Below, in pieces: positions 18,425 to 32,757 of a stretch of DNA of 64,000 bases (position 1 is its first letter; each line of letters starts with the position of its first letter). The position numbers were made by a program, and so were the translations under genes. Location: NCBI GenBank assembly GCA_910575005.1, contig CAJTCL010000003.1, positions 186,001 through 250,000 of the forward strand, given 5' to 3'. Below the pieces are notes generated by a model. It saw only the letters and a program-made list of their open reading frames with translations, searched no databases and had not been told where the DNA came from. The DNA is from Lachnospiraceae bacterium (lineage in GTDB: Bacteria > Bacillota > Clostridia > Lachnospirales > Lachnospiraceae).

Positions 18425-18479
18425 GACAGGATAGTTTTAGGCACAGATTATTATGGGCAACGGCAGGAAGGAAAAAGAG

Positions 18480-19988
18480 ATGGCTAAGAATATCATGATA
18501 CAGGGTACAATGTCCAATGCGGGAAAGAGCCTGCTTGTGGCGGGGCTGTGCCGAATATTTCGACAAGATGGTTTTGCGACTGCTCCTTTTAAATCACAGA
18601 ATATGGCTTTAAATTCCTATATCACAGAGGAAGGACTGGAAATGGGACGTGCACAGGTGGTACAGGCGGAAGCGGCGGGGGTGCCGCCATCTGTTTTCAT
18701 GAATCCCATTTTACTAAAACCCACAAATGATACTGGCTCGCAGGTGATTGTCAATGGGAAAGTACAAGGAAATATGAGCGCTAAAGATTATTTTGCTTAT
18801 AAGAAAAAGTTGATTCCAGATATTTTAAAGGCTTATCAACAACTGGAACGAAAGTTTGATCGGATTGTAATAGAAGGAGCGGGTTCACCAGCAGAAATCA
18901 ATTTAAAACAGGATGATATTGTAAATATGGGAATGGCAACGTTAGTGAATGCGCCAGTATTGCTGGTGGGCGATATAGACAGGGGGGGCGTATTTGCCCA
19001 GCTTGCAGGGACAGTAATGTTGTTAGAGCCTAAGGAACGGGCAAGGGTTCAGGGCATGATCATCAATAAATTTCGCGGAGATCAGAGTATTTTAGATTCA
19101 GGCGTGGAGATGATTCAAGAAATTACTGGTATTCCAGTGGTAGGAGTTGTACCCTATATGCAAGTAGATATTGAAGAGGAGGACAGTCTGACCGAACGTT
19201 TTGCGGCAAAGAATCCAGCAGGAGTTTTGGATATTGCAGTGATTCGGCTCCCAAGAATTTCTAATTTTACCGATTTTGCGGTGTTAGAACAGAGAAAACA
19301 GGTCAATCTGCGCTATGTGGCAAGTGTAGCACAACTTGGACAGCCAGATATGATTCTGCTTCCAGGGACAAAAAATACCATATCAGATTTAAAATGGTTA
19401 AGACAAAATGGGTTGGAAATGGCGATTTGCAGAGCTAAGGAGCAAGGAAGTGTGATTTTTGGGATTTGCGGCGGATATCAGATGTTGGGGATGCATATTT
19501 CTGATCCAGAACAGGTAGAGGAGGGTGGACAGTTAAGAGGAATGGGACTGCTGCCAGTAAATACTACATTGACCAGAGAGAAAACCAGAAGACAGGTGCA
19601 GGGATGTTTGGGAAAGCTTTCTGGTATGTTGCAATGTTTGTCAGGGTTTCGATTTGCGGGATATGAAATTCATATGGGGCAGACAGAGTTTGATAAAGAG
19701 CCAGGAGTTGCTGTGGCAGAAATCCAACAACAGCAAATATGCAGGTTGGATGGATGTTGTAAAGAGAATGTATATGGAACCTATATTCACGGCATTTTTG
19801 ATGAGGAGGGTATTGTCAAGACCATGCTGGTATCACTTGCTAAGAGAAAAGGCATCACTTTAGATAATTTGACAGAAATGACCCGAAAGGAATATAAAGA
19901 GAGTCAATATAATTTGCTGGCAGATACTCTGAGAAAACATTTGGATATGGAAAAAATTTATCAGATTATGGAGAAGGTGGGGAAATAA
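18480..19988 (+). CDS. cobQ: Cobyric acid synthase CobQ/CbiP
   Basis: This 502-residue ATP-dependent amidotransferase amidates four side chains of adenosylcobyrinic acid a,c-diamide. The N-terminal half is a dethiobiotin-synthetase-like P-loop domain ([32 protein letters not shown]), and the C-terminal half a class I glutaminase with the nucleophile C330 in [10 protein letters not shown]. The length is normal. ATG 18480 follows GGAAGG by 8 bases. The gene ends 2 bases before cbiC. Confidence 0.96.
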
Positions 19989-19990
19989 TA

Positions 19991-20656
19991 ATGAAAATAG
20001 AGCTAGAACAAGTGCTTCCCCAGGAAATTGAAGCGCGCAGTTTTGAATTGATCACGGAAGAGATTGGAGAATTGCAGATGGAAGGGGGCTATGCGTCGAT
20101 TGTAAAACGTGTGGTTCATACTACGGCAGATTTTGATTTTGTAGAAAATTTAGTATTTTCTCCAGGAGTGTTAGAACAAGCTCTGGAAGCTTTGTGGCAG
20201 GGAGCTTGTATTGTCACAGATACACAGATGGCGCTGGCGGGCATCAATAAACAAGCATTGAAGGCTCTCGGAATAGAAGTTTATAATTTTATGAAAGACG
20301 CAGATGTGGCGGAGTTGGCCAAGAAAAATCATACAACCCGAGCGGTAGCATGTATGGATAAAGCAGCAGCGTTAAAACGACCAGTGATTTTTGTAATTGG
20401 CAATGCGCCTACCGCTTTAGTCCGCATTTATGAGCTGATACAGGAAGGACAGCTTGCGCCCAAGCTAGTGATTGGAACACCAGTGGGATTTGTCAATGTG
20501 GTACAATCTAAGGAGCTGATTTTATCGCTGCCCATCCCCTATATTGTTTCTCGAGGAAGAAAGGGCGGCAGCAATGTGGCGGCGGCGATTGTCAATGCAT
20601 TGTTGTATATGTTGTATGACCGTGAAAATCAGTCTTTGGTGGAGAGGGAACTATGA
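19991..20656 (+). CDS. cbiC: Precorrin-8X methylmutase CbiC
   Basis: This 221-residue enzyme moves the C11 methyl to C12 to make (cob)yrinic acid. It has the opening PQEIEARSFELITEE, the catalytic-position H43 in KRVVHTTADF and the closing VSRGRKGGSNVAAAIVNAL, all family marks. It starts 2 bases after cobQ and overlaps hemA by 4 bases (ATGA), so the three are translated together. Confidence 0.96.
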   Translation: MKIELEQVLPQEIEARSFELITEEIGELQMEGGYASIVKRVVHTTADFDFVENLVFSPGVLEQALEALWQGACIVTDTQMALAGINKQALKALGIEVYNFMKDADVAELAKKNHTTRAVACMDKAAALKRPVIFVIGNAPTALVRIYELIQEGQLAPKLVIGTPVGFVNVVQSKELILSLPIPYIVSRGRKGGSNVAAAIVNALLYMLYDRENQSLVEREL

Positions 20657-21972
20657 ATGTAAAAATGACAGGAATTGATTTTACAAGAGCGGAAATTGAT
20701 GTCAGGCAGCGTTTTTCTTTTACCAAAAATGCGATTGCAGAGGCGATGGAACAGTGCAGGGGGATAGAACAGATACAAGGAAGTGTCTTTCTCTCTACCT
20801 GTAATCGGATGGAGCTATGGCTCAGTCTTGCACAGGGGGCGCAGTTTGAGCTGCCTGATTTTTTGTGCAGTTTGAAGGGACTTTGCGCAGATCATTACCG
20901 AGAATATTTTGTGATACGGGAAAACGAAGAGGCTGTGGAACATTTATTTTTTCTCAGTGCCGGAATGAAGTCACAGATTGTAGGGGAGGATCAGATCTTA
21001 ACACAAGTCAAGGAGGCGCTTGCATTTGCCAGAGAGCAGGAAAGCACCGATCAAGTATTAGAAATGCTGTTTCGCAGAGCAATTACTGCAGGCAAACAGG
21101 TAAAAACAGCTGTCACGATGGACAAGGCAAACTATTCTGCAGCGCATCAGGCAGTAGCATTTTTGAAAAGGAAGGGAACAGATTTTATTCATAAAACTTG
21201 TCTGGTAATTGGAAATGGAGAGATGGGGAAGTTGACAGCACAGACATTGATGGAGGAAGGAGCAGACGTCACTGTGACAGTGCGGCAGTATCGAAGCGGT
21301 GTGGTGCAGATTCCGCAGGGCGCAAAAAGAATTGATTATGGTGAGCGCTACCAATATATTCCGGTATGTGATTTAATTGTCTCTGCAACGGCAAGTCCCA
21401 ATCTGACAATTACGAAAGAGAATTTAGAAGCTTGCAGGAAACATCAAATTGAGCAGAAACGGGAATGTGAAGTACAGAGTGATCAAATAGAGCAGAAGCA
21501 GGCATGGGAAACACAGAATTTACAGTCAGTATGTGGAAAATCTATAAAAGAGAAACAGATTTTTGTGGATTTGGCAGTGCCGCGTGATATGGAACCAGCG
21601 ATTGCCAAAATCGAAGGGGTGTCTTATTATGATATGGATAGTCTGCCAGTGGAGATGCAGTCTCAGCGAATGCATGATCAGTCTCAGCGGGCGGAGCATA
21701 TCTTGAGACAGGAAATACAAAGTTTTTTTGATTGGTATCAGTGTCGGGACTTGGTTCCAAGAATACAAGGAATTGGAACTAAGACAGCGGAAGAACTAGT
21801 ATGGCGGATGGGAAAATATTTGAAAGAGATAAATTTGCCGAACACAGACAAGGAAAATTTGCAAAAGCACCTGGAGGAGACAGCTGGAAAGGTGGTGAAT
21901 AAATTATTGTTTGAATTAAGAGATCAGATAGGGCCGGAATGTATCAGGGAAATTGTGGAGATACTGGAATAA
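20653..21972 (+). CDS. hemA: Glutamyl-tRNA reductase HemA
   Basis: This 439-residue enzyme catalyses the first step of the C5 route to 5-aminolevulinate, reducing Glu-tRNA to glutamate-1-semialdehyde. The catalytic C50 is in FLSTCNRMEL, followed by GEDQILTQVK and the NADPH-binding VIGNGEMGKL. An extra hydrophilic stretch (about residues 255-295, with two QIEQK units) interrupts the NADPH domain before KQIFVDLAVPRD. The gene overlaps cbiC by 4 bases. Its partner HemL is encoded at 31480. Confidence 0.96.
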   Translation: MNVKMTGIDFTRAEIDVRQRFSFTKNAIAEAMEQCRGIEQIQGSVFLSTCNRMELWLSLAQGAQFELPDFLCSLKGLCADHYREYFVIRENEEAVEHLFFLSAGMKSQIVGEDQILTQVKEALAFAREQESTDQVLEMLFRRAITAGKQVKTAVTMDKANYSAAHQAVAFLKRKGTDFIHKTCLVIGNGEMGKLTAQTLMEEGADVTVTVRQYRSGVVQIPQGAKRIDYGERYQYIPVCDLIVSATASPNLTITKENLEACRKHQIEQKRECEVQSDQIEQKQAWETQNLQSVCGKSIKEKQIFVDLAVPRDMEPAIAKIEGVSYYDMDSLPVEMQSQRMHDQSQRAEHILRQEIQSFFDWYQCRDLVPRIQGIGTKTAEELVWRMGKYLKEINLPNTDKENLQKHLEETAGKVVNKLLFELRDQIGPECIREIVEILE

Positions 21973-22096
21973 GTATCATTAAAAATACAATAAATGGGAT
22001 GCAAAATATAAGGAAATAAAAATTAAACTTATATTTAATATAAAATAGAATGGATAAAAATACTTAAATAAAAGGAATTAGGAGGAAAGAAATATT

Positions 22097-22609
22097 ATGG
22101 AAATGTGGGATATTTATGACAGCAAGAAACAGCGGACGGGACGTACTATGAAACGAAATGACTGGTGTCTGAAAGATGGAGAATATCATCTTACCGTGTT
22201 GGGGGTGGTGATGCGTCCAGACGGCAGATTTCTGATTACCAAGCGTGTGATGACAAAGGCTTGGGCGCCTGGATGGTGGGAAGTTTCCGGCGGAGCTGTG
22301 ATGGCTGGAGAGAGTTCTAAGGAGGCCGTGATTCGGGAAGTAAAAGAAGAAACGGGATTGGACGTCTCAGGTTGTGGGGACGGCTATCTCTTTACTTATC
22401 ATCGGGAAAATCCAGGAGAAGGGGATAATTATTTTGTAGATGTATATCGGTTTGTATTGGATTTTGAGGAGTCAGAACTCTCACTGCAGGAAGAAGAGAC
22501 GGCTGGATATATGCTGGCAGATCGTTCCCAAATTGAGGAGTTTGCATCACAGGGGATTTTTCTGCATTATGATAGTATTAAACAGGCATTTTCAGTGGAG
22601 GAGAAATGA
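22097..22609 (+). CDS. NUDIX hydrolase
   Basis: This 170-residue protein has a complete Nudix box, G(5x)E(7x)REVKEETGL, spanning GGAVMAGESSKEAVIREVKEE. The N-terminus (WDIYDSKKQRTGRTMKRND) resembles the isopentenyl-diphosphate-isomerase-like/YfcD subgroup, but the substrate cannot be told. It lies between hemA and the sirC-like gene, overlapping the latter by 4 bases, so it is co-translated with tetrapyrrole genes. AGGAGG precedes its ATG. Confidence 0.92.
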   Translation: MEMWDIYDSKKQRTGRTMKRNDWCLKDGEYHLTVLGVVMRPDGRFLITKRVMTKAWAPGWWEVSGGAVMAGESSKEAVIREVKEETGLDVSGCGDGYLFTYHRENPGEGDNYFVDVYRFVLDFEESELSLQEEETAGYMLADRSQIEEFASQGIFLHYDSIKQAFSVEEK

Positions 22610-23067
22610 CAACTTATTTTCCGTTGTTTTTTAATATGGAGGACAGAGAGATTCGGGTGTTTGGAGGCGGAAACATTGCTGCAAGGCGTGTGAAAATGTT
22701 GTTGGAATTTGGCGCCAAGGTATCTGTGGCTGCGCCCCAAATGACAGAGGAGCTGGAAAAGCTGGCACAGCAACAAGAAAAATTGTCTTTGGAATATCGC
22801 AGATATCGTTGTGGGGAATTGACCAGAGAGTGGCTTGTGCTTGCAGTCACAGACGATCTAGCTGTGAATGATATGATTTTTGAGGAGTGCCGCAAGAAAC
22901 AGATTTTCGTAAATGTAGCTTCAGACAAAGAAAAATGTGATTTTTATTTTCCAGGGATTGCCAAGTCGGGGAATATCACAGTGGGCGTGACAGCGGGAGG
23001 TACAAATCATCACAAGGCTGCACAAATCACCGAAAAAATACGTGGGCAGCTTTCTGAATGGGAATAG
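22606..23067 (+). CDS. Precorrin-2 dehydrogenase (SirC/CysG N-terminal type)
   Basis: This 153-residue protein has the NAD-binding loop FGGGNIAARRVKMLL and the family stretch VNVASDKEKCDFYFPGI, matching the dehydrogenase part of siroheme synthase. It converts precorrin-2 to sirohydrochlorin. It lacks the C-terminal methyltransferase, which is supplied here by the CobA-HemD fusion at 28894. The short C-terminus suggests dehydrogenase rather than chelatase activity, but the latter is not excluded. Confidence 0.9.
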   Translation: MTTYFPLFFNMEDREIRVFGGGNIAARRVKMLLEFGAKVSVAAPQMTEELEKLAQQQEKLSLEYRRYRCGELTREWLVLAVTDDLAVNDMIFEECRKKQIFVNVASDKEKCDFYFPGIAKSGNITVGVTAGGTNHHKAAQITEKIRGQLSEWE

Positions 23068-23084
23068 GAAAAGGAGAGATCATA

Positions 23085-23957
23085 GTGCAGAAAATAAGGA
23101 TTGGTACCAGAGAAAGTCGATTGGCAGTAATTCAGGCACAATATTTGGCGGAGTATATCCGTTGTTCCTGTCAGGAGCTGGAACCAGAGCTGGTGACGAT
23201 GAAGACTACAGGCGATCGGATTTTAGACCGCACATTAGACAAAATTGGCGGAAAAGGGCTGTTTGTCAAAGAATTAGATCGGGCGCTTAGAGAACAGCGC
23301 AGTGACGTTTCTGTCCACAGTCTTAAGGATGTTCCTATGGAGACACCAAATGATTTACCGCTGCTTGGTTTTTCTAGGAGGGAGGACGCCAGGGATGTCT
23401 TGGTTTTGCCGAAGGGTGTCAAAGAATTAAATCTGCATTTACCATTGGGATGTTCCAGTGCAAGGCGTAAAATACAATTACAGAGATTGTTTCCCGAAAT
23501 GGAGATCAAGAGCATTCGCGGCAATGTCCTAACCCGTCTGCAGAAATTAGATCAAGGCAGGTACAGCGGACTGGTGCTTGCAGCCGCGGGTTTGAAGCGT
23601 CTGGGGCTTACCGAACGAATTAACAAGTTTTTCTCTGTTGAAGAAATATTGCCGGCAGCCGGTCAGGGAATCTTGGCTGTCCAGGGCAGACAAGGTGAGG
23701 ATTATCAATATCTACAAGGGTTTTTTGATAGAGACAGTACTTGGTGTGCTCTGGCAGAGCGCAGCTTTGTCCGAGCGCTGGAGGGTGGGTGCAGTTCGCC
23801 GATCGCCGCCTATGCGGTGACAGAACCAGGAGAATGGCTGCGTTTGACTGGTTTGTATGCACAGGAAGGAAGCAGTGAATATCAGATTGACACGATAACT
23901 GGAGAGAAGGAAAATGCAGAAGCTCTGGGCAGAGAGCTTGCGGAAAAGATAAAATGA
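23085..23957 (+). CDS. hemC: Hydroxymethylbilane synthase (porphobilinogen deaminase) HemC
   Basis: This 290-residue enzyme polymerises four porphobilinogens into hydroxymethylbilane. The visible hallmarks are RIGTRESRLAVIQAQ, the catalytic Asp in VHSLKDVP, AAAGLKRLG, and the dipyrromethane-binding C236 in LEGGCSSPIAAYA. I prefer the GTG at 23085, 8 bases after AAGGAG, over the ATG at 23058 inside the preceding gene. It is the last tetrapyrrole gene before the 24.0-28.8 kb insertion. Confidence 0.95.
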   Translation: MQKIRIGTRESRLAVIQAQYLAEYIRCSCQELEPELVTMKTTGDRILDRTLDKIGGKGLFVKELDRALREQRSDVSVHSLKDVPMETPNDLPLLGFSRREDARDVLVLPKGVKELNLHLPLGCSSARRKIQLQRLFPEMEIKSIRGNVLTRLQKLDQGRYSGLVLAAAGLKRLGLTERINKFFSVEEILPAAGQGILAVQGRQGEDYQYLQGFFDRDSTWCALAERSFVRALEGGCSSPIAAYAVTEPGEWLRLTGLYAQEGSSEYQIDTITGEKENAEALGRELAEKIK

Positions 23958-24085
23958 AATTAGAATGAAAATGTTAGTAAGGAAAGTGAGATAGGAGAAA
24001 TGATATGTGATTACGAAACTCAATAATTTTGAAACTTAGTAGTTTCGAAAATACCAAGGAGAAATTATAAAGAGGGGGAAAGTGA

Positions 24086-24793
24086 GTGATTACAATAGGA
24101 ATATGTGACGATGAACAAAAAAGTCGTGAAATATTACTAAGTTTTTGTAGACAGCTCTTTGTTGATAAAGAGAATTATGAGATCAAAGAATTTGTTTCTG
24201 GAGAGGAAGTTCTCAAGAGTGAAAAAACGGATATTTTGCTGTTAGACATTGAAATGTGTGGAATAGACGGAATTGTTGTGAAGGATGAACTTCAAAATCA
24301 AGGGGAAGAGGTAGACATTCTTTTTATCACCAACTATAGTGAACGTATGCAGGAAGCCTATGGAAAAAATGTTTTTGGATTTTTACATAAACCTTTGCAG
24401 TATCTTGAATTTCAAAAGGAAATGCAGAAAATTATAAAAGATTTAGAAGCTAGATATAAATCTGTTTTGATTAGAGGAATAGATAGATACCGAACCATTT
24501 ACATGAGAGATATTGTCTATATTAAAGTTTATGGAAAATATGTGAAAGTACATACTGTCTTAGAGGATAATGTGTTTTTTGACGACAGGAATATGAAAGA
24601 TTGGGAAAAAAGATTGAAAAACAGCGGATTTGTAATGACCCATCAAAGTTATCTGGTAAATTTGTTCTGGATTGAAAAGGTAGGAAAAGAAAGTGTTCTT
24701 TTGAAAAATGGAGAAGTTATTAATATCAGTCGAAGAAAAAAGAATATATTTATGGAAGAGTATATGAAGTATGTTCTAAAATATGCAAGGTAA
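24086..24793 (+). CDS. LytTR-family response regulator (AgrA/ComE type), orphan
   Basis: This 235-residue regulator has a receiver domain with D8/D9 and the phospho-acceptor D54 in LLLDIEMCGIDG, and a C-terminal LytTR DNA-binding domain (about 130-235; YIKVYGKYVKVHT, THQSYLVNLFWI). LytTR regulators with this layout usually control bacteriocins, toxins or competence in response to a peptide pheromone. No sensor kinase or pheromone gene is next to it. It starts at GTG 24086 after a GAGGGGGAAAG stretch. The secreted protein gene downstream is its obvious candidate target. Confidence 0.9.
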   Translation: MITIGICDDEQKSREILLSFCRQLFVDKENYEIKEFVSGEEVLKSEKTDILLLDIEMCGIDGIVVKDELQNQGEEVDILFITNYSERMQEAYGKNVFGFLHKPLQYLEFQKEMQKIIKDLEARYKSVLIRGIDRYRTIYMRDIVYIKVYGKYVKVHTVLEDNVFFDDRNMKDWEKRLKNSGFVMTHQSYLVNLFWIEKVGKESVLLKNGEVINISRRKKNIFMEEYMKYVLKYAR

Positions 24794-24811
24794 AAATAAA
24801 TGTTCAAAATG

Positions 24812-24844
24812 ACCAATTTTTTCTGCAAGTAACCAAATTTTCTC
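24812..24844 (+). promoter_or_regulatory. Candidate LytTR-type direct-repeat operator
   Basis: Two similar segments (ACCAATTTTTTCT at 24812 and ACCAAATTTTCTC at 24832) are 20 bases apart, about two helical turns, as in LytTR-type operators. A TAAAAT -10-like hexamer follows at 24879-24884. The repeat sequence does not match the AgrA consensus well. Confidence 0.3.
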
Positions 24845-24910
24845 AAAGAGTAGAATGTGAATTGATTCTAGTTTATGATAAAATAAAGTAATGTAAAGGG
24901 GGAATTTGCT

Positions 24911-24986
24911 ATGGTTTTTGAAAATGAATAAAAAGTAACAGTGTATTTATTTTTGAAAGGTTCACTCAGAAAGTTTCTTTCAAAAA
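24911..24986 (+). promoter_or_regulatory. Leader with a micro-ORF and hairpin before the secreted-protein gene
   Basis: A 6-codon frame (MVFENE, 24911-24931) follows AAGGGGG, and is followed by a perfect 10-bp inverted repeat (24950-24959 with 24977-24986). Together they could act as a translational or attenuation switch in the 5' leader, but this is only a structural reading. Confidence 0.3.
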
Positions 24987-25014
24987 CAAAATTCTCAATG
25001 AAAGGAGAATGCTT

Positions 25015-25554
25015 ATGAAAAAAATGATTGCAATTTTATTATCTTTTGTTTTAATGTTTTCTGTTTCTATTCCTGTATCAGCAAATGGGTCAAATACATG
25101 TAGTGTTGTGGAAGAAGATATGACAACTGGGGCGTATTATTTATTGGAAGAAAATGGTGAATTGTATATCATACCATCTATCGAAACGCGTATGGGCGGA
25201 GGTATTGGACGCTGTACTGTACAAAATAAGACATTCTCATATTCTATGAACCGAAGCCAGGCACGAGCAGCTCTTGATGCAATTTCACTTGGTGAAGGAT
25301 GTGTTAAATCACTTGGCACACTATTGAGTGCAGCTATTCCTGGAGGTGTAGGTGCTACTATTGGTCTTTCTGTTTCTGTAATTTTAAATTTTCTTGGTGG
25401 AGAAAGTGCCTATGTAAGTGCTCTTAAAACTTTTCTTAATTCTGGAAAATCAACAGCATATTTTAAATTTAAAACACATTGTGTCAATCGTGGTTATATG
25501 TATGGTGATCCAATGTATGATTACGAAGTAGATTCCGTTAGTATAACGTTTTAA
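25015..25554 (+). CDS. Secreted protein with hydrophobic Gly/Ala-rich centre, unknown function
   Basis: This 179-residue protein has a clear signal peptide (MKKMIAILLSFVLMFSVSIP, cleavage probably after VSA). The mature part carries four Cys, a Gly-rich start (TRMGGGIGRC) and a hydrophobic, small-residue-rich segment (about 100-133, LGTLLSAAIPGGVGATIGLS then VSVILNFLGG), then a polar C-terminus. Such a segment is common in pore-forming bacteriocins, and a LytTR regulator lies upstream, so a bacteriocin-like role is a reasonable guess, not a finding; I recognise no family. The ATG at 25015 was chosen because AAAGGAG is 7 bases upstream. Confidence 0.75.
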   Translation: MKKMIAILLSFVLMFSVSIPVSANGSNTCSVVEEDMTTGAYYLLEENGELYIIPSIETRMGGGIGRCTVQNKTFSYSMNRSQARAALDAISLGEGCVKSLGTLLSAAIPGGVGATIGLSVSVILNFLGGESAYVSALKTFLNSGKSTAYFKFKTHCVNRGYMYGDPMYDYEVDSVSITF

Positions 25555-25559
25555 AAATT

Positions 25560-25712
25560 ATGAAAAAAAGAAAGATTGCATTTGGGATATTTATCGCTGT
25601 GTTACTATTACAATTTATCTCGTTCTTTATAGATAATCCATATAGATTTATTTTAGTTGTTATCAATTTAAGTTTGATTGCAGTTATGTATTTTCTAATT
25701 AGAAATAAATAA
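25560..25712 (+). CDS. 50-residue membrane peptide, possible immunity protein
   Basis: ATG 25560 begins 5 bases after the secreted-protein stop and runs 50 codons. The basic N-terminus (MKKRK) leads into two hydrophobic helices (about 6-24 and 30-47) separated by DNPYR and ends RNK. The position, size and two-helix topology are those of immunity proteins of small bacteriocins. There is no separate strong ribosome binding site, so it would be translated by coupling. The open frame, Lys-rich start and terminator just after it support a real gene; the function is inferred. Confidence 0.6.
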   Translation: MKKRKIAFGIFIAVLLLQFISFFIDNPYRFILVVINLSLIAVMYFLIRNK

Positions 25713-25739
25713 TTGTTATTATTGTCGCTTAATGAGAAG

Positions 25740-25779
25740 TGCCTCTCCTGTCGATCAGACAAGAGGGGCATTATTTTTT
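25740..25779 (+). terminator. Intrinsic terminator after the secreted-protein operon
   Basis: A 13-bp stem (25740-25752 with 25758-25770, one mismatch and one G-U) is followed by TTATTTTTT. It lies directly against the 3' end of the convergent small toxin gene. Confidence 0.85.
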
Positions 25780-25895
25780 CAGCTCTTATTCTTGTGTTTG
25801 CGGTGTAAGAGAAACAATGAGAAACCTAAACTGCAAATGCATATTAGCAAATTCAAAATTGTAATGCATATCGTAATGATATCATAAGATTGCAT
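25779..25895 (-). CDS. Small hydrophobic toxin, holin-like (TxpA/BsrG type I family)
   Basis: A 38-codon frame begins at the minus-strand ATG 25893-25895, 7-8 bases after AAGGAG, and ends TGA at 25779-25781. The peptide starts MQSYDII, has a hydrophobic helix (about 6-31) and ends in a basic tail (LHRKHKNKS). This matches the plan of type I toxins such as BsrG and TxpA and of the Hol_Tox family: M-x-x-Y-(E/D) start, one helix, Lys-rich end. A strong promoter (25986-26014, minus strand) drives it, with an untranslated leader of about 85 bases. It converges on the secreted-protein operon. An antitoxin RNA is expected but not identified. Confidence 0.7.
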   Translation of the reverse strand: MQSYDIITICITILNLLICICSLGFSLFLLHRKHKNKS

Positions 25896-25985
25896 AAGCG
25901 TTGTCTCCTTTCCTATGGTATAACAATAAATCAGTTTTCATTTACTCAATAGACCATCCTGTCATGGGTATTCTTCTATAAGAAC

Positions 25986-26014
25986 ATTATAACAGAGGGT
26001 TGCAGGATTGGCAA
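25986..26014 (-). promoter_or_regulatory. Strong promoter of the small toxin gene
   Basis: On the minus strand TTGCCA (26009-26014), a 17-base spacer and TGT-TATAAT (-10 at 25986-25991, extended by TGn) form a near-consensus housekeeping promoter. Confidence 0.7.
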
Positions 26015-26040
26015 TTATGTTTTCAAACAATTTTATGTTA

Positions 26041-26094
26041 TCGACTTGTCCCCCTTTCTATGCTATAATAAATAAATTACAGCATAGAAAGGGG
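26041..26094 (+). promoter_or_regulatory. Promoter and 14-bp dyad of the GTPase-nuclease gene
   Basis: TCGACT (26041-26046), 17 bases, and TATAAT (26064-26069) form a promoter. A perfect 14-bp inverted repeat (26051-26064 with 26081-26094) flanks the -10, and its right arm contains the ribosome binding site AAAGGGG. It could be a repressor operator; in a transcript from further upstream it would hide the ribosome binding site. Confidence 0.65.
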
Positions 26095-26102
26095 TATTTT
26101 CG

Positions 26103-28808
26103 ATGGGTGACACATCTGAAAATAAGCCATTAAAATATATTAGTGTAGGACTGTTGGCTCATGTGGATGCAGGCAAAACTACACTCTCTGAGGCATTGCT
26201 ATATACAAGTGGAAATATCCGAAAGCTGGGAAGAGTGGACAGTCAAGATGCCTTTTTAGATACTTATGAACTGGAACGAGCAAGAGGAATTACAATTTTT
26301 TCCAAACAGGCAGTATTAAAACTTTCTACTATTGGTCTTACTCTGTTGGACACCCCAGGACATGTGGATTTTTCTGCAGAAATGGAACGGACCTTGCAAG
26401 TGCTGGATTATGGCATTTTAGTAATCAGTGGTACTGATGGCATACAGGGACATACAAGAACCTTATGGCAGCTTTTGAAAAAATATAAAATACCAGTAGT
26501 TCTGTTTGTAAATAAAATGGACCGGCCAGAGACAAACCAGCAAAAATTGATGGAAGAATTGAGAGAAAAACTAGATCAAAATTGTGTAGATTTTTCTGAA
26601 TCTGATACAGAAGAATTTTATGAGAATGTGGCAATGTGTCAGGAAGAGATACTGGACTATTATTTGGAGCATGGAATGGTGTTGGAGGAACAGATCAAAG
26701 AACTGATTTGCCAGCGTCAAATTTTTCCCTGTTTTTTTGGTTCGGCATTAAAACTGATTGGAATCAAAGAATTTTTGCAAGGAGTGGAGAAATTTACGAA
26801 ATTTCCAGAATATCCAGAAGAATTTGCTGCAAAAATTTTTAAGATTACGCGAGATGGCCAAGGAAACCGACTGACACACTTAAAAGTGACAGGTGGAACT
26901 TTAAAGATAAAAACACCTCTTACTGCTCTTCAAGAGAAAGTCAATCAAATCCGTATTTATTCTGGTGAAAAATTTGAAGCTATATCAGAAGCCGGAGCAG
27001 GAACCATCTGCGCTGTGACAGGTTTACAGGAGACGCGGCCAGGAGAAGGGCTGGGGATAGAGAAAAATTCGGACATGCCTATGTTGGTGCCGGTGATGAC
27101 TTGTCAAATATTGCTGCCACCGGAATGCGATATGACAAAAATGATTCGCAATCTCTATCAGCTCCAGGAGGAAGAGCCAGAACTTCATATTATATGGGAT
27201 GAGGTATTGCAGGAAATTCGAGTGCAGGTGATGGGTCAAGTACAGTTGGAAATTCTTAAGAGTCAGATTATGGAGCGTTTTGGCGTGGAAGTATCATTTG
27301 GAGCTGGAAGTATATTATATAAGGAAACAATTGCAGATCCAGTAGAGGGAGTAGGGCATTATGAGCCGCTGCGTCATTATGCGGAGGTACATTTGCTGTT
27401 GGAGCCAGGAGAGCCAGGCAGCGGTCTGCAATTTTTTACTTCCTGTAGTGAGGATGTACTAGACCGCAACTGGCAGCGCCTAATTTTAACGCATCTGGAA
27501 GAGAAAGAGCATAGAGGTGTTTTGACTGGTTCTCCCATTACAGATTTAAAGGTTACACTAATTGCCGGACGTGCGCATCTAAAACATACAGAAGGCGGTG
27601 ATTTCAGGCAGGCGACTTACCGTGCCTTGCGTCAGGGATTGATGGAAGCACAGTCTGTTTTGTTGGAACCAATGTATGCATTTCGTTTGGAGGTACCACA
27701 ACAAATGCTTGGGCGTGCAATCAATGATGTAGAGCGGATGAGTGGTAGATTTGATCAGCCCAAGATGCAGGGAGAGATGGCAGTAATCGCCGGAATTGCC
27801 CCAGCCTCTGAAATGCAGGATTACCAGCAGGAAGTGATTGAATATACGAGAGGAGAGGGCAAGCTGTCTTTTACCTTACATGGATATGAGGCTTGTCACA
27901 ATGCCCAAAAGGTAATTGAGCGGGCTGGCTATGATCCCAAAGGGGATCTGGAAAATTCTCCTGATTCTGTATTTTGTGCACATGGAGCCGGATTTGTGGT
28001 GGACTGGCAGCAGGTCAAGGAATATATGCATATTGAGACTCCAACAGCAGTACAGAGTCTTTTGCAAGGGTTGGACAAGTCTGAGGCAGACTTTCAGATG
28101 CAGGAGATCACAGCATCTAAAGGGCAACGGGAAGAGATGGAAAGTAATTGGCAAGAGGAGAATTGGATTGGGGAAGACGAGGTTGAGGCTATTCTATCTC
28201 GAACATTTGGAGCCAACAGACAGGAGGCCAATAAACAAAAAAGAGGGTGGCGCCGAACAAAAACCAGCATCAAAGAGAGCGTGCCAGCAGTTAGCCGTAC
28301 TTGGAAGGCGCCGCAAAAGAAGGACTCATATCTTTTGGTGGATGGCTATAATATTATATTTGCCTGGCAGGAATTAAAGGAGCTTGCCGCATTAAATATT
28401 GATAGTGCCAGGGGCAGGCTCTTAGATATCATGTGTAATTATCAGGGGCTTTGTGCCTGTAATCTGATTGTGGTGTTTGATGCTTATCGGGTACAGCGGC
28501 ATCAGGAGGAAATTTTGGACTACCATAACATTCATGTGGTATTTACCAGAGAGGCGGAAACGGCAGATCAGTATATTGAGCGTTTTGCACACGAACATGC
28601 CAGACAGTATCAAGTAACAGTTGCCACCTCTGATGGGTTAGAACAGATTATCATTCAGGGACAGGGGTGTCGGCTGATCTCCGCAAGGGAACTGCAGGAA
28701 GAAATTCAGCATATAGGGCAACAGATGCACAGGGAATATATGGAACGTCAGCAAAAAGGGAGGTATTTTCTGGGGGAATCTATCCCAGACCACTTGAGAA
28801 AATTATAG
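26103..28808 (+). CDS. Tet(M)-like translational GTPase fused to a YacP/Rae1-like NYN nuclease domain
   Basis: This 901-residue protein has an EF-G/ribosomal-protection-type GTPase: P-loop AHVDAGKTT (19-27), RGIT (61-64), DTPGH (83-87), NKMD (137-140), then EF-G-like domains 2-5 to about residue 650. A linker (about 655-740) rich in Gln, Glu and Lys leads to a C-terminal NYN/PIN-like domain (about 742-880) with acidic positions D747 (LLVDGYNII), D793 (VVFDAYR), D822 and D844 (VATSDG). The last domain resembles B. subtilis YacP/Rae1, which cuts mRNA in the ribosomal A site. Classical Tet(M) has no such domain. The fusion suggests ribosome-linked mRNA cleavage or rescue; tetracycline protection is possible but unproven. 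ATG 26103 lies 8 bases after AAAGGGG. Confidence 0.88.
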   Translation: MGDTSENKPLKYISVGLLAHVDAGKTTLSEALLYTSGNIRKLGRVDSQDAFLDTYELERARGITIFSKQAVLKLSTIGLTLLDTPGHVDFSAEMERTLQVLDYGILVISGTDGIQGHTRTLWQLLKKYKIPVVLFVNKMDRPETNQQKLMEELREKLDQNCVDFSESDTEEFYENVAMCQEEILDYYLEHGMVLEEQIKELICQRQIFPCFFGSALKLIGIKEFLQGVEKFTKFPEYPEEFAAKIFKITRDGQGNRLTHLKVTGGTLKIKTPLTALQEKVNQIRIYSGEKFEAISEAGAGTICAVTGLQETRPGEGLGIEKNSDMPMLVPVMTCQILLPPECDMTKMIRNLYQLQEEEPELHIIWDEVLQEIRVQVMGQVQLEILKSQIMERFGVEVSFGAGSILYKETIADPVEGVGHYEPLRHYAEVHLLLEPGEPGSGLQFFTSCSEDVLDRNWQRLILTHLEEKEHRGVLTGSPITDLKVTLIAGRAHLKHTEGGDFRQATYRALRQGLMEAQSVLLEPMYAFRLEVPQQMLGRAINDVERMSGRFDQPKMQGEMAVIAGIAPASEMQDYQQEVIEYTRGEGKLSFTLHGYEACHNAQKVIERAGYDPKGDLENSPDSVFCAHGAGFVVDWQQVKEYMHIETPTAVQSLLQGLDKSEADFQMQEITASKGQREEMESNWQEENWIGEDEVEAILSRTFGANRQEANKQKRGWRRTKTSIKESVPAVSRTWKAPQKKDSYLLVDGYNIIFAWQELKELAALNIDSARGRLLDIMCNYQGLCACNLIVVFDAYRVQRHQEEILDYHNIHVVFTREAETADQYIERFAHEHARQYQVTVATSDGLEQIIIQGQGCRLISARELQEEIQHIGQQMHREYMERQQKGRYFLGESIPDHLRKL

Positions 28809-28822
28809 GCTAATGCTATAAT
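28794..28822 (+). promoter_or_regulatory. Promoter of the cobA-hemD/hemB/hemL operon
   Basis: TTGAGA (28794-28799) and TATAAT (28817-28822) are exactly 17 bases apart. The -35 lies in the last codons of the preceding gene. It gives the second half of the tetrapyrrole genes its own start. Confidence 0.7.
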
Positions 28823-28893
28823 ATGATAACATGACATTTGGTCGGTGAAGCATCAAAGAACAAACAGTGAATGATGCAAGGAAAGGATATTCC

Positions 28894-30423
28894 ATGAAGG
28901 GTAAGGTATGGCTAATAGGAGCAGGCCCCGGAGATTTGGGGCTGTTTACCATCAAGGGCAGAGAAATTCTGCAACAGGCAGAGGTGGTGGTATACGACCG
29001 TTTGGTCGGCGAGAGCATTTTAAATCTGATTCCCAGAGAAGCAGAATGCATAGATGTCGGTAAACGTGCAAGAAATCATACAGTGCCGCAGGAACAGATC
29101 AATCAGATATTATTGAAAAAGGCACAGCAAGGAAAGCGGGTGGTACGCTTAAAGGGTGGGGATCCGTTTTTATTTGGCAGAGGCGGGGAAGAACTGGAGT
29201 TGTTGGCAGAGAAGGAAATTCCTTTTGAGATTGTGCCAGGTGTCACGTCGGCTTTTGCGGTTCCAGCTTATAATGGGATTCCGGTGACACATAGACATTT
29301 TGCGTCATCTGTACATGTGATCACTGGCCATAAGAAGAAAGATCAGCCATTACAGCTTGATTATGAAGCTTTGGTACGTCTTGGAGGGACCTTGGTATTT
29401 TTGATGGGAGGGGCGGCCATTCAAATCATCTGTGAGGGACTTCTTGCGGCAGGGATGAGGTCAGATATGCCGGCAGCAGTATTGCAGCAGGGCACATGTG
29501 CCGCTCAGAAAAAAATCATTTCCGATATCAAAAATCTACCTATAAAAATAACAAAACAAGAGCTACAAACGCCGGCAATTTTTATGGTAGGAGAAGTTTG
29601 TAGACTGGGAAATGAGTTTGCCTGGTATGAGAAAATGCCCCTTTTCGGGGAAAAAATTCTTGTCACAAGGCCTAAGGAGCGCAGCGGAACAATCAGTTGC
29701 AAGCTCCGTTCTTTGGGAGCAGAAGTCTTGGAACTGCCAGCTATTCGCACTGAGCTGATTGCAGGTAATAAGAGACTGGAGGAAGTATTTGCAAGACTTT
29801 TTCATTATGATTATCTGGTATTTACCTCGCCAGCAGGTGTAAAACTGTTTTTTGAGGAATTAAAAGATCAAAAAAGGGATATCCGCTCGATTGGAACTGC
29901 AAGGATTGCGGCGATTGGTATGGGAACGAAAAAGGAACTAGAAGCACGGGGATTAATCTGTGAATTGATGCCAGAGATTTATGATGGAGAACATTTGGGA
30001 ATATTGCTGGGAGAGACTTGTAAAGCGGGAGAACGGATTTTGATTCCTAGGGCAGAACAGGGCAGCGCTCAGATCATTGCGGAAATAGAAAAAAGAGTGC
30101 AAGTTGAGATTACAGATTTACCAATTTATCGAACTATTTATGAAAAACCCTCAGAACTGGTGGATGAGAAGAAACAGATCGAGCAGGGCAAGATTCATAT
30201 GGCAGTATTTACCAGTGCCTCCACGGTACGAGGATTTGCCAAAGCGACACAGGGACTTAATTATGAGACAGTGCAGGCCGTATGTATTGGCCGACAGACA
30301 CAAGAAGCGGCAAAAGAGTTAGGCATGAAGACAATTGTATCTCAAAAAGCTACGATTGATAGTTTGGTAGAGGCATGTGTAAAGGCTGCACAGCAAGAAT
30401 GCAAAAAGGATGAAAAGAGTTAA
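28894..30423 (+). CDS. Fused uroporphyrinogen-III methyltransferase and uroporphyrinogen-III synthase (CobA-HemD)
   Basis: This 509-residue bifunctional enzyme has an N-terminal SAM-dependent methyltransferase (about 1-245; GAGPGDLGL, VVYDRLV, KGGDPFLFGRGGEE, IPVTHR) that makes precorrin-2. Its C-terminal uroporphyrinogen-III synthase (about 250-505; EKILVTRP, FTSPAGVKLFFEEL, FTSASTVRGF) closes hydroxymethylbilane. This fusion is common in Clostridia. The ATG at 28894 is 8 bases after AAAGGA. It uses the product of HemC and feeds the SirC-like enzyme and cobalamin genes. Confidence 0.95.
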   Translation: MKGKVWLIGAGPGDLGLFTIKGREILQQAEVVVYDRLVGESILNLIPREAECIDVGKRARNHTVPQEQINQILLKKAQQGKRVVRLKGGDPFLFGRGGEELELLAEKEIPFEIVPGVTSAFAVPAYNGIPVTHRHFASSVHVITGHKKKDQPLQLDYEALVRLGGTLVFLMGGAAIQIICEGLLAAGMRSDMPAAVLQQGTCAAQKKIISDIKNLPIKITKQELQTPAIFMVGEVCRLGNEFAWYEKMPLFGEKILVTRPKERSGTISCKLRSLGAEVLELPAIRTELIAGNKRLEEVFARLFHYDYLVFTSPAGVKLFFEELKDQKRDIRSIGTARIAAIGMGTKKELEARGLICELMPEIYDGEHLGILLGETCKAGERILIPRAEQGSAQIIAEIEKRVQVEITDLPIYRTIYEKPSELVDEKKQIEQGKIHMAVFTSASTVRGFAKATQGLNYETVQAVCIGRQTQEAAKELGMKTIVSQKATIDSLVEACVKAAQQECKKDEKS

Positions 30424-30480
30424 TATCAGTTTGCAGTGGACAGAAATGTTGTCTGCTGTATTGTTTCAGGAGGTATGAAT

Positions 30481-31464
30481 ATGGAACTAATCCACAGGCC
30501 ACGGCGTCTTCGTGGAACTGCCACACTGCGCCAGATGGTGCGAGAGACCAGAGTAAATAAGTCTTCTTTGGTATATCCTATGTTTGTAATAGAGGGGGAT
30601 AATAGAAAGGAAGAAATTCCTTCTATGCCAGGACAGTATCGTTACAGTGTAGACTGTATGGAAGAAAAACTGATAGAACTGTGTCGTGCTGGAGTACCTG
30701 CTGTGATGTTTTTTGGGATTCCTTCACAGAAGGATGCCTTAGGAACTAGTGCCTATCTTGAGGATGGAATTGTACAGAGGGCATTTCGTAAGGCAAAAGA
30801 AGTCTGTCCTGAATTGTATCTAATTGGGGATGTGTGTATGTGTGAATATACTTCCCACGGGCATTGTGGAATATTGTGCGGCCAGGAGATAGACAATGAC
30901 AATACATTGGGGTTGTTGGCCAAGACAGCCTTGTCTCAGGTACAGGCAGGGGCTGATATGGTAGCGCCTTCTGATATGATGGATGGGCGCGTGGCGGCGA
31001 TTCGCAGAGTTTTAGATCATAATGGTTATATCAATACACCGATTATGTCCTATGCAGTCAAGTTTGCCTCTTCGTTCTATGGTCCTTTTCGGGATGCCGC
31101 CAATTCCGCTCCAGCATTTGGCGACCGCAAATCCTATCAGATGGATTATCACAACCGCAGGGAAGCCATAAAGGAAGCTATGCTGGATGTACAGGAAGGT
31201 GCAGATATTATAATGGTGAAGCCTGCTATGGCCTATGGAGATTTAATTCGAGAGGTTAAGGATCATACTGATCTCCCAGTGGCGTCTTATTCTGTCAGTG
31301 GGGAATATGCTATGGTGAAGGCAGCGGCGCAGGCAGGTCTTGTCGATGAGAGCAGTATCATCTGTGAGATGGCGGTCAGCGCTTATCGTGCTGGTACAGA
31401 CATCTATATCACTTATTTTGCAGAAGAATTGGCAAACTATATGGATCAGGGCAGAATTGGTTAG
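30481..31464 (+). CDS. hemB: Delta-aminolevulinic acid dehydratase (porphobilinogen synthase) HemB
   Basis: This 327-residue enzyme condenses two 5-aminolevulinates to porphobilinogen. Schiff-base lysines are in AVKFASSFYGPFR and MVKPAMAYGD. The zinc-binding Cys cluster DVCMCEYTSHGHCG shows it is a zinc-dependent form. I prefer the ATG at 30481, 7 bases after AGGAGG, over the ATG at 30475, which is only 1 base from it. It lies between cobA-hemD and hemL. Confidence 0.96.
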   Translation: MELIHRPRRLRGTATLRQMVRETRVNKSSLVYPMFVIEGDNRKEEIPSMPGQYRYSVDCMEEKLIELCRAGVPAVMFFGIPSQKDALGTSAYLEDGIVQRAFRKAKEVCPELYLIGDVCMCEYTSHGHCGILCGQEIDNDNTLGLLAKTALSQVQAGADMVAPSDMMDGRVAAIRRVLDHNGYINTPIMSYAVKFASSFYGPFRDAANSAPAFGDRKSYQMDYHNRREAIKEAMLDVQEGADIIMVKPAMAYGDLIREVKDHTDLPVASYSVSGEYAMVKAAAQAGLVDESSIICEMAVSAYRAGTDIYITYFAEELANYMDQGRIG

Positions 31465-31479
31465 AAAGGAAGAACAGTG

Positions 31480-32757
31480 ATGACGAAGTCAGAGCGTTTA
31501 TTTCAAGAGGCTGTACAGGTGATTCCTGGCGGGGTCAATTCTCCCGTGCGTGCCTTTGGCTCAATTGACAGTACACCGAGATTTATCAAAAGTGCTGAGG
31601 GTGCATGTCTCTATGATGAAGATGGAAACTGCTATATTGACTTTATTGGTTCCTGGGGACCGATGATTTTAGGACACAGCCATAAGGCGGTGGTAGAACG
31701 TGTGACGCAGGCTTGCCAACAAGGATTGAGCTTTGGCGCAGCGACAGCCGCTGAGGTGGAAATGGCGAAGCTAGTCTGCAGTATGGTTCCTTCCATTGAG
31801 ATGGTACGCATGGTCAATTCTGGAACAGAAGCAGTAATGAGCGCCATACGTGTGGCCAGAGGTTTTACCAGAAGAGAGAAAATTATTAAATTTACCGGCT
31901 GTTATCATGGACATTTTGATGCGCTGCTCGTACAGGCAGGGTCTGGGGTAATGACGGCAGGAGTGCCAGGCAGTCTGGGTGTGCCCGCTGGATGTACCAA
32001 AGATACACTATTGGCAGAGTATAATGACCTGGAGAGTGTGCAAAGGCATTTTGCACGATGTGCAGAGGAAATTGCCGCGGTGATTGTGGAGCCAGTGGCG
32101 GCAAATATGGGAGTGGTACCACCTGCTTCTGGTTTTCTGGAGGGATTGAGACAGCTCTGTGATAATAATGGTGCATTGTTGATTTTTGATGAAGTGATTA
32201 CTGGATTTCGGTTAGGGCCGGCTGGTGCTCAGGGATATTATGATATTGTACCAGATCTGACCACATTTGGAAAAATTATCGGCGGCGGAATGCCTGTGGG
32301 TGCCTATGGCGGCAGAAGAGATATTATGGAGCTTGTAGCTCCCTTGGGCGGCGTATATCAGGCAGGCACCTTGAGCGGCAACCCGATTGCTATGGCGGCA
32401 GGGATTGCCCAACTAACTATTTTAAAGGAACATCCAGAATATTATCAACAGTTAAATGAGCGTGGAGACTGGTTCTATGGGCAGATAGAGCAGTTTGTGA
32501 AGGCAGCAGGATTGTCCTGCACAGTAAATCATGTAGGTTCTTTGGGATGTCTGTATTTTACAGATCAGGAAGTTGTGGATTATGAGAGTGCCAAAACTTC
32601 TGATACAAAGGCTTTTGCCGATTATTGCAACTATATGATAGAACATGGGATTTATCTTGCTCCCGCACAATTTGAGGCAATGTTTTTGTCATTGGCACAT
32701 ACCGATGAAATGTTAGAGAATGTTTTAAAATGTATCAAACAATATTTTAATTTATGA
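31480..32757 (+). CDS. hemL: Glutamate-1-semialdehyde 2,1-aminomutase HemL
   Basis: This 425-residue PLP enzyme converts glutamate-1-semialdehyde, made by HemA, to 5-aminolevulinate. It has VNSGTEAVMSAIRVARGFT, FDEVITGFRLG and the PLP lysine K265 in TTFGKIIGGGMPVGAYGG. The ATG at 31480 was chosen over an adjacent GTG because it is 7 bases from AAGGAAG. It closes the operon; only imperfect hairpins (around 32762-32805) follow. Confidence 0.96.
   Translation: MTKSERLFQEAVQVIPGGVNSPVRAFGSIDSTPRFIKSAEGACLYDEDGNCYIDFIGSWGPMILGHSHKAVVERVTQACQQGLSFGAATAAEVEMAKLVCSMVPSIEMVRMVNSGTEAVMSAIRVARGFTRREKIIKFTGCYHGHFDALLVQAGSGVMTAGVPGSLGVPAGCTKDTLLAEYNDLESVQRHFARCAEEIAAVIVEPVAANMGVVPPASGFLEGLRQLCDNNGALLIFDEVITGFRLGPAGAQGYYDIVPDLTTFGKIIGGGMPVGAYGGRRDIMELVAPLGGVYQAGTLSGNPIAMAAGIAQLTILKEHPEYYQQLNERGDWFYGQIEQFVKAAGLSCTVNHVGSLGCLYFTDQEVVDYESAKTSDTKAFADYCNYMIEHGIYLAPAQFEAMFLSLAHTDEMLENVLKCIKQYFNL

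Follow-up and report, generated by a model that had tools for sequence, protein, structure and literature searches.

In the parts of two reports that concern it (PMC6613710, PMC12320835), Bacillus subtilis Rae1, also called YacP, is described as an endoribonuclease of the ribosomal A site. Rae1 is an NYN-domain protein of 170 residues with no GTPase, and its gene lies in the order cysS-mrnC-rlmB-rae1-sigH. How Rae1 chooses its ribosomes is, to our knowledge, unsettled. The A site is also where EF-G and the Tet-type GTPases act, by inserting domain IV into it on whole ribosomes. Proteins that combine the two were listed in a 2015 survey (PMC4342817), the relevant passages of which report “Tet proteins with YacP-like NYN domain” in ten Clostridiales species, file them under Tet, attribute drug displacement to the domain IV loops of Tet proteins and suggest RNase-based resistance. 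Those passages contain neither a loop test of the fusion nor synteny or replacement evidence. Among the matches listed in our literature search, which covered titles and abstract openings, there was no other report on the fusion. The architecture is already known, and its reading as a tethered Rae1 is a reinterpretation.

The gene analyzed here (26103..28808, plus strand) lies in a 64,000-nucleotide stretch of DNA from a Lachnospiraceae bacterium, referred to below as the window. It starts with ATG, encodes 901 residues and, judged against the passages of PMC4342817, has the same architecture as the proteins surveyed there. Its closest named relative, at 93%, is also from a Lachnospiraceae bacterium. 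The original prediction, which was made from the letters of the window, held that a GTPase is here fused to a Rae1/YacP-like NYN domain, and a Pfam search bore this out. The chain opens with a GTP_EFTU G domain (residues 12–230, 26136..26792, 3e-51), followed on the same strand by EF-G domains II and III (residues 241–400, 26823..27302, with EF-G_D2 at 241–315 and EFG_III at 330–400), domain IV (EFG_IV, residues 403–517, 27309..27653) and domain V (EFG_C, residues 519–601, 27657..27905). In the alignment, the domain IV loop GRAHLKHTEGGDFR (residues 489–502, 27567..27608) occupies the position at which Tet(M), Tet(O) and Tet(S) carry their SPVST loop. A conserved segment at about residues 598–648 (27894..28046) closes the GTPase half at the point where sister GTPases end. 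It is succeeded by a linker (about residues 649–740, 28047..28322) that is variable by alignment and dN/dS and contains one short motif conserved in the alignment (about residues 688–706, 28164-28220). The NYN similarity predicted beyond residue 740 was found at residues 744–890 (28332..28772), where the NYN_YacP profile (PF05991) matches with an E-value of 3.9e-49 and 167.3 bits against a curated cut-off of 24.6; this is the single NYN_YacP match in the genome.

Structure matches agree with this layout. The NYN part matches B. subtilis YacP structures 5mq9 (7.2e-26) and 5mq8 (8.9e-26), and the GTPase part matches structures of EF-G, Tet(O) and Tet(M). As read from the sequence, the protein has both the G domain motifs and domains II–V, and thus belongs to the EF-G type. 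The predicted P-loop AHVDAGKTT (residues 19–27), DTPGH (83–87) and NKMD (137–140) are all present in the reading frame, and all 53 fused rows of the alignment carry P-loop, DTPGH-type and NKxD motifs. The acidic residues D747, D793, D822 and D844 stand where the prediction placed them and are the same as those in B. subtilis Rae1; all 50 fused and all 20 stand-alone relatives examined retain the four, with no loss. We consider it probable that the fusion gene supplies this bacterium with its Rae1, in a form to which an EF-G-type translational GTPase of its own is covalently tethered.

The arrangement is not the product of chance, for purifying selection seems to act on both halves. In the comparison with close relative L040, dN/dS was 0.114 for the GTPase, 0.204 for the linker and 0.086 for the NYN domain, most other comparisons being saturated at synonymous sites. 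Among pairs of 49 fused proteins (L084 excluded), the identities of the GTPase and NYN halves correlate with an r of 0.81. When 50 fused NYN rows were constrained to one clade (L083 and L084 excluded), the likelihood came out 15 units above that of the free quick tree, with a p-AU of 0.745. The fused state requires four changes on the quick NYN tree and two on the GTPase tree, the latter two of which we put down to L084, which has a very long branch, and to the partial row L136. The AU test allows a single origin of the fusion without proving it.

The survey of Clostridia proposed with the original prediction was carried out as a PF05991 profile search of 393 genomes of the class, and showed the fusion to be common. 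YacP was found in 250 genomes, comprising 136 with a fused form, 113 with a stand-alone form (in one, G286, with extensions) and one with a marginal fragment (G261). A single frame of more than 800 residues encodes the fusion in 127 of the 136 (for 42 of them the criterion was how long a frame holds the GTPase), and in nine it is broken or split (G062, G172, G156, G185, G295, G235, G071, G044 and G190). The split in G190 (L222:2541-5255) yields two reading frames, one for the G domain and one for domains III–V with NYN. More than one YacP match occurred in five genomes, one of which (G284) has a fused and an intact stand-alone form together. Within the family of the window, 137 of 150 genomes matched NYN_YacP; by hand count, 129 are fused, including five in which a contig end, stop or frameshift divides the gene (G423, G467, G470, G507 and G532) and one that is shortened (G503), and eight are stand-alone (G438, G408, G471, G397, G524, G433, G412 and, with an extension, G443). 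The match in G400 spans profile positions 1–80 only. The other 13 family genomes gave no match to the profile, and the function is therefore dispensable. A survey of the phylum matched 110 of 199 genomes, which by hand count hold 12 fused, 95 stand-alone and three unclear forms (G723, G575 and G568); nine of the 12 fusions come from outside the class. A shortened fusion of 680 residues was seen in G503 (L223:1358-3400), which is fusion-like to about residue 397, has no Pfam match for EF-G domains III–V and continues with NYN; it is either a natural deletion or an assembly error.

GTPases of the same kind also occur unfused. These EF-G-like proteins of about 650 residues (L118–L124, L126 and L127) share the T.GGDF loop of the fusion (11/11 sister rows) and differ from it in having neither linker nor NYN domain; L118, L120 and L121, for example, are 44–46% identical to the GTPase half from the window. 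All nine full-length sisters with printed ends stop at the start of the linker, give or take a few residues. In the class, 90 of the 113 stand-alone-YacP genomes had no match to the GTPase at 1e-100 and 23 had one; the nuclease therefore needs no GTPase, which suggests that the latter is an accessory and not a requirement. Seven class genomes hold an unfused GTPase match and no YacP (G025, G028, G054, G068, G178, G288 and G381, the last being more distant), indicating that the GTPase is independent of the nuclease and has a use of its own. On these two class counts we rejected the idea that an unfused GTPase generally accompanies a stand-alone YacP. In the family of the window, searched at 1e-40, the unfused GTPase was found in seven of nine stand-alone-YacP genomes (one as a shortened reading frame) and in none of the 13 without YacP, a contrast that, uncorrected for kinship, hints at a link between GTPase and YacP.

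The free forms invite a reading in which the two halves are merely co-expressed, the GTPase being a separate elongation or recycling helper, the nuclease acting alone and the linker having no coupling role. Such a reading fits the existence of both unfused sister GTPases and stand-alone YacP, the presence of a sister GTPase with no YacP in at least six genomes and the faster evolution of the linker relative to the halves. Yet the linker retains its short conserved motif, a single fusion origin was not rejected, 127 class genomes keep the long single frame and the family counts (7/9 versus 0/13, with kinship uncorrected) hint that the halves belong together. We therefore regard mere co-expression as unlikely, and a Rae1 that is functionally tied to its GTPase as the better account.

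Still less probable is that the fusion is a ribosomal protection protein against tetracycline or another A-site antibiotic, with an added RNase that aids resistance, as suggested in the passages of PMC4342817. The relationship on which this proposal draws is real. Like Tet(M), Tet(O) and Tet(S), the fusion has a five-domain EF-G-like GTPase in the same domain order and with a similar C-terminal end, its identity to these proteins is 28–30%, and it scores 416 bits on the NCBIfam model tet_protect (NF012153). That score, however, falls below the cut-off of 775, which is exceeded by Tet(M) at 875.7 and by a Tet(O)-like protein from the same genome at 851.5; a fused relative (L061) and an unfused sister (L118) scored 443.9 and 408.2, respectively. 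The domain IV loop also differs. SPVST, which we take to be the drug-displacing letters of the Tet loop, is present in 6/6 Tet rows, 0/53 fused rows and 0/11 unfused sister rows. T.GGDF is found in 51/53 fused and 11/11 sister rows and is missing from every Tet and EF-G row; the two remaining fused rows (L078 and L084) have neither motif. In the GTPase tree the fused proteins and unfused sisters group together (support 93), apart from the Tet rows. Unlike the fusion, the Tet proteins lack a nuclease and are found on many plasmids; we saw a fused gene in two plasmid records, both large and typed as non-mobilizable.

As judged by sequence comparison, then, the GTPase belongs to a subfamily separate from that of the Tet ribosomal protection proteins. 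The predicted description of it as Tet(M)-type holds for the EF-G/Tet domain set and fails at the Tet model cut-off and the Tet loop. Elsewhere in the genome of the window (contig C8, L140:1796-3715) is a separate, intact and canonical ribosomal protection protein of 639 residues, the Tet(O)-like control above, which groups with plasmid Tet(O) on branches of 0.003 each and is nearly identical to it. With the sub-threshold score beside positive controls, the absent loop, the plasmid search and this separate gene, a tetracycline resistance gene was set aside as the leading reading, and the preference of the original prediction for a Rae1-linked role was upheld. Its suspicion that fusions stand in databases under a resistance label was also correct: the Agathobacter rectalis member (WP_306784676.1) is annotated as “TetM/TetW/TetO/TetS family”, a label that could be counted in favor of resistance, and another member is a “translation factor GTPase family protein”. 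Chromosomal genes of commensals can thus be annotated as tetracycline resistance despite missing the curated Tet cut-off and the Tet loop, and such labels could inflate resistance counts for gut genomes.

In B. subtilis the stand-alone yacP gene occupies a slot that is empty in the genome of the window, whose fusion is located not in the cysS-mrnC-rlmB-rae1-sigH order but among porphyrin and cobalamin genes. A cluster that we call rlmB was present in 17/20 stand-alone YacP loci. The cluster names were taken from B. subtilis synteny and checked by Pfam on one locus (L094), where SpoU methylase, sigma-70 factor, RNase III domain and cysteinyl-tRNA synthetase matches agree with them; mrnC we take to be an rRNA enzyme. 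We sought rlmB in 31 genomes, 29 with a fused and two with a stand-alone YacP (G438 and G209), and obtained 30 loci, 28 of which are from fused genomes. A sigH match lay downstream of rlmB in 18 of these 28. The rlmB–sigH interval of the 18 contained one intact yacP, two clear remnants, one weak remnant and, in 14, nothing detected, a 12-bit profile match in L213 being counted among the 14. The intact gene (188 bits) is in G284, which has a fusion as well. The clear remnants are two separate yacP fragments in G370 (31.7 and 23.0 bits on the profile) and a 159-nucleotide fragment in G116, which has no profile match and tblastn E-values of 1e-10 against YacP of its own family and 0.007 against another; the weak remnant, in G022, has a tblastn E-value of 4e-5 and 13.8 profile bits. 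These tblastn E-values refer to a database of the 30 loci, searched with neither low-complexity filter nor composition correction. In the genome of the window (L200), one of the 14, the slot is empty, the rlmB and sigH matches being 46 bp apart. No profile match at E 1 was obtained from ten shuffled controls per locus. At the other ten fused loci no sigH was seen and no yacP adjoined rlmB (in L194, 520 bases downstream only).

Slots that hold both forms, a remnant or nothing are as expected after replacement by a functional equivalent, and the fused form seems, from these gene arrangements, to have replaced the separate nuclease in many related bacteria. Both states occur within family f21, in which G206 and G094 have a stand-alone YacP and no GTPase match at 1e-40, and G116 has a fusion together with the remnant. 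In G191 (L053, contig C1) the fusion lies about 5 kb or less from rlmB, near the ancestral yacP slot. Extended to its full reach, the tethered-Rae1 reading would make the fusion a widespread and mislabelled bacterial factor of ribosome surveillance, in which EF-G-type GTP hydrolysis gates an A-site mRNA endonuclease on the same chain, and which displaced free Rae1 in much of Clostridia and, within the family of the window, in most of the genera sampled; this broader version we offer tentatively, as possible but short of probable. A role in the maturation of rRNA or tRNA, in which the GTPase would target assembling subunits and the NYN domain would trim RNA, is very improbable, for although rlmB and mrnC at the ancestral locus are rRNA enzymes and the passages of PMC4342817 cite a maturation proposal for NYN domains, in proteins of this family it is domain IV that reaches into the A site, and does so on whole ribosomes, and the characterized relative, B. 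subtilis Rae1, is given as an A-site endoribonuclease in the parts of PMC6613710 and PMC12320835 noted above.

For a Rae1 tethered to its GTPase, the following course of action can be proposed. The GTPase half would bind ribosomes with an empty or blocked A site, and domain IV, with its conserved HT.GGDF loop, would probe or clear that site. Hydrolysis of GTP would then free the GTPase half, whereupon the putative nuclease domain, on its linker of about 90 residues, could enter the A site and cut the mRNA there, its presumed substrate, much as reported for Rae1 of B. subtilis. Decay of the cut mRNA and rescue of the ribosome would follow. Since one A site would scarcely have room for both domain IV and the NYN domain, we propose that the two act in sequence or that the mRNA is cut at a neighboring site. 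GTPase first and nuclease second is the simplest working order, and it is this order, with its dependence on GTP, that we infer. A natural fusion that seemingly replaces Rae1 points to an EF-G-type GTPase acting at the A site as a candidate partner activity for it, and allows the choice of ribosomes by Rae1 to be tested directly.

Upstream of the fusion gene, on the plus strand, is a promoter-like TCGACT-N17-TATAAT (26041..26069), which is recognizable upstream of several close relatives. A 19-nucleotide inverted repeat with a loop of six (26051..26094, RNA fold z of -7.1) overlaps the -10-like hexamer and the ribosome-binding site. Compared by eye, it is clear in the window and L040, recognizable in L042 and not seen in L044, and we regard it as a lead and not as an established conserved element. 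The gene lies inside a run of cobalamin and heme genes (18453-32757) that encode a cobyric acid synthase-like protein, CbiC, HemA and HemC, then CobA-HemD, HemB and a HemL-like protein. No neighborhood is shared by the fusions at large, as clusters found in at least four fused loci are restricted to the window and relatives close to it, with the exception of one 331-residue family in L044, L047, L051 and L080. A defense system was rejected, PADLOC giving a sole match of 14.5 bits, to a ThsB model, as was a mobile origin, in view of the porphyrin and cobalamin neighbors and the two plasmid records described above. One further fused gene (L137:3844-6453) is carried by a 43-kb scaffold (MT835514) deposited as “Bacteriophage sp.” and flagged UNVERIFIED; our guess is that this scaffold is bacterial DNA.
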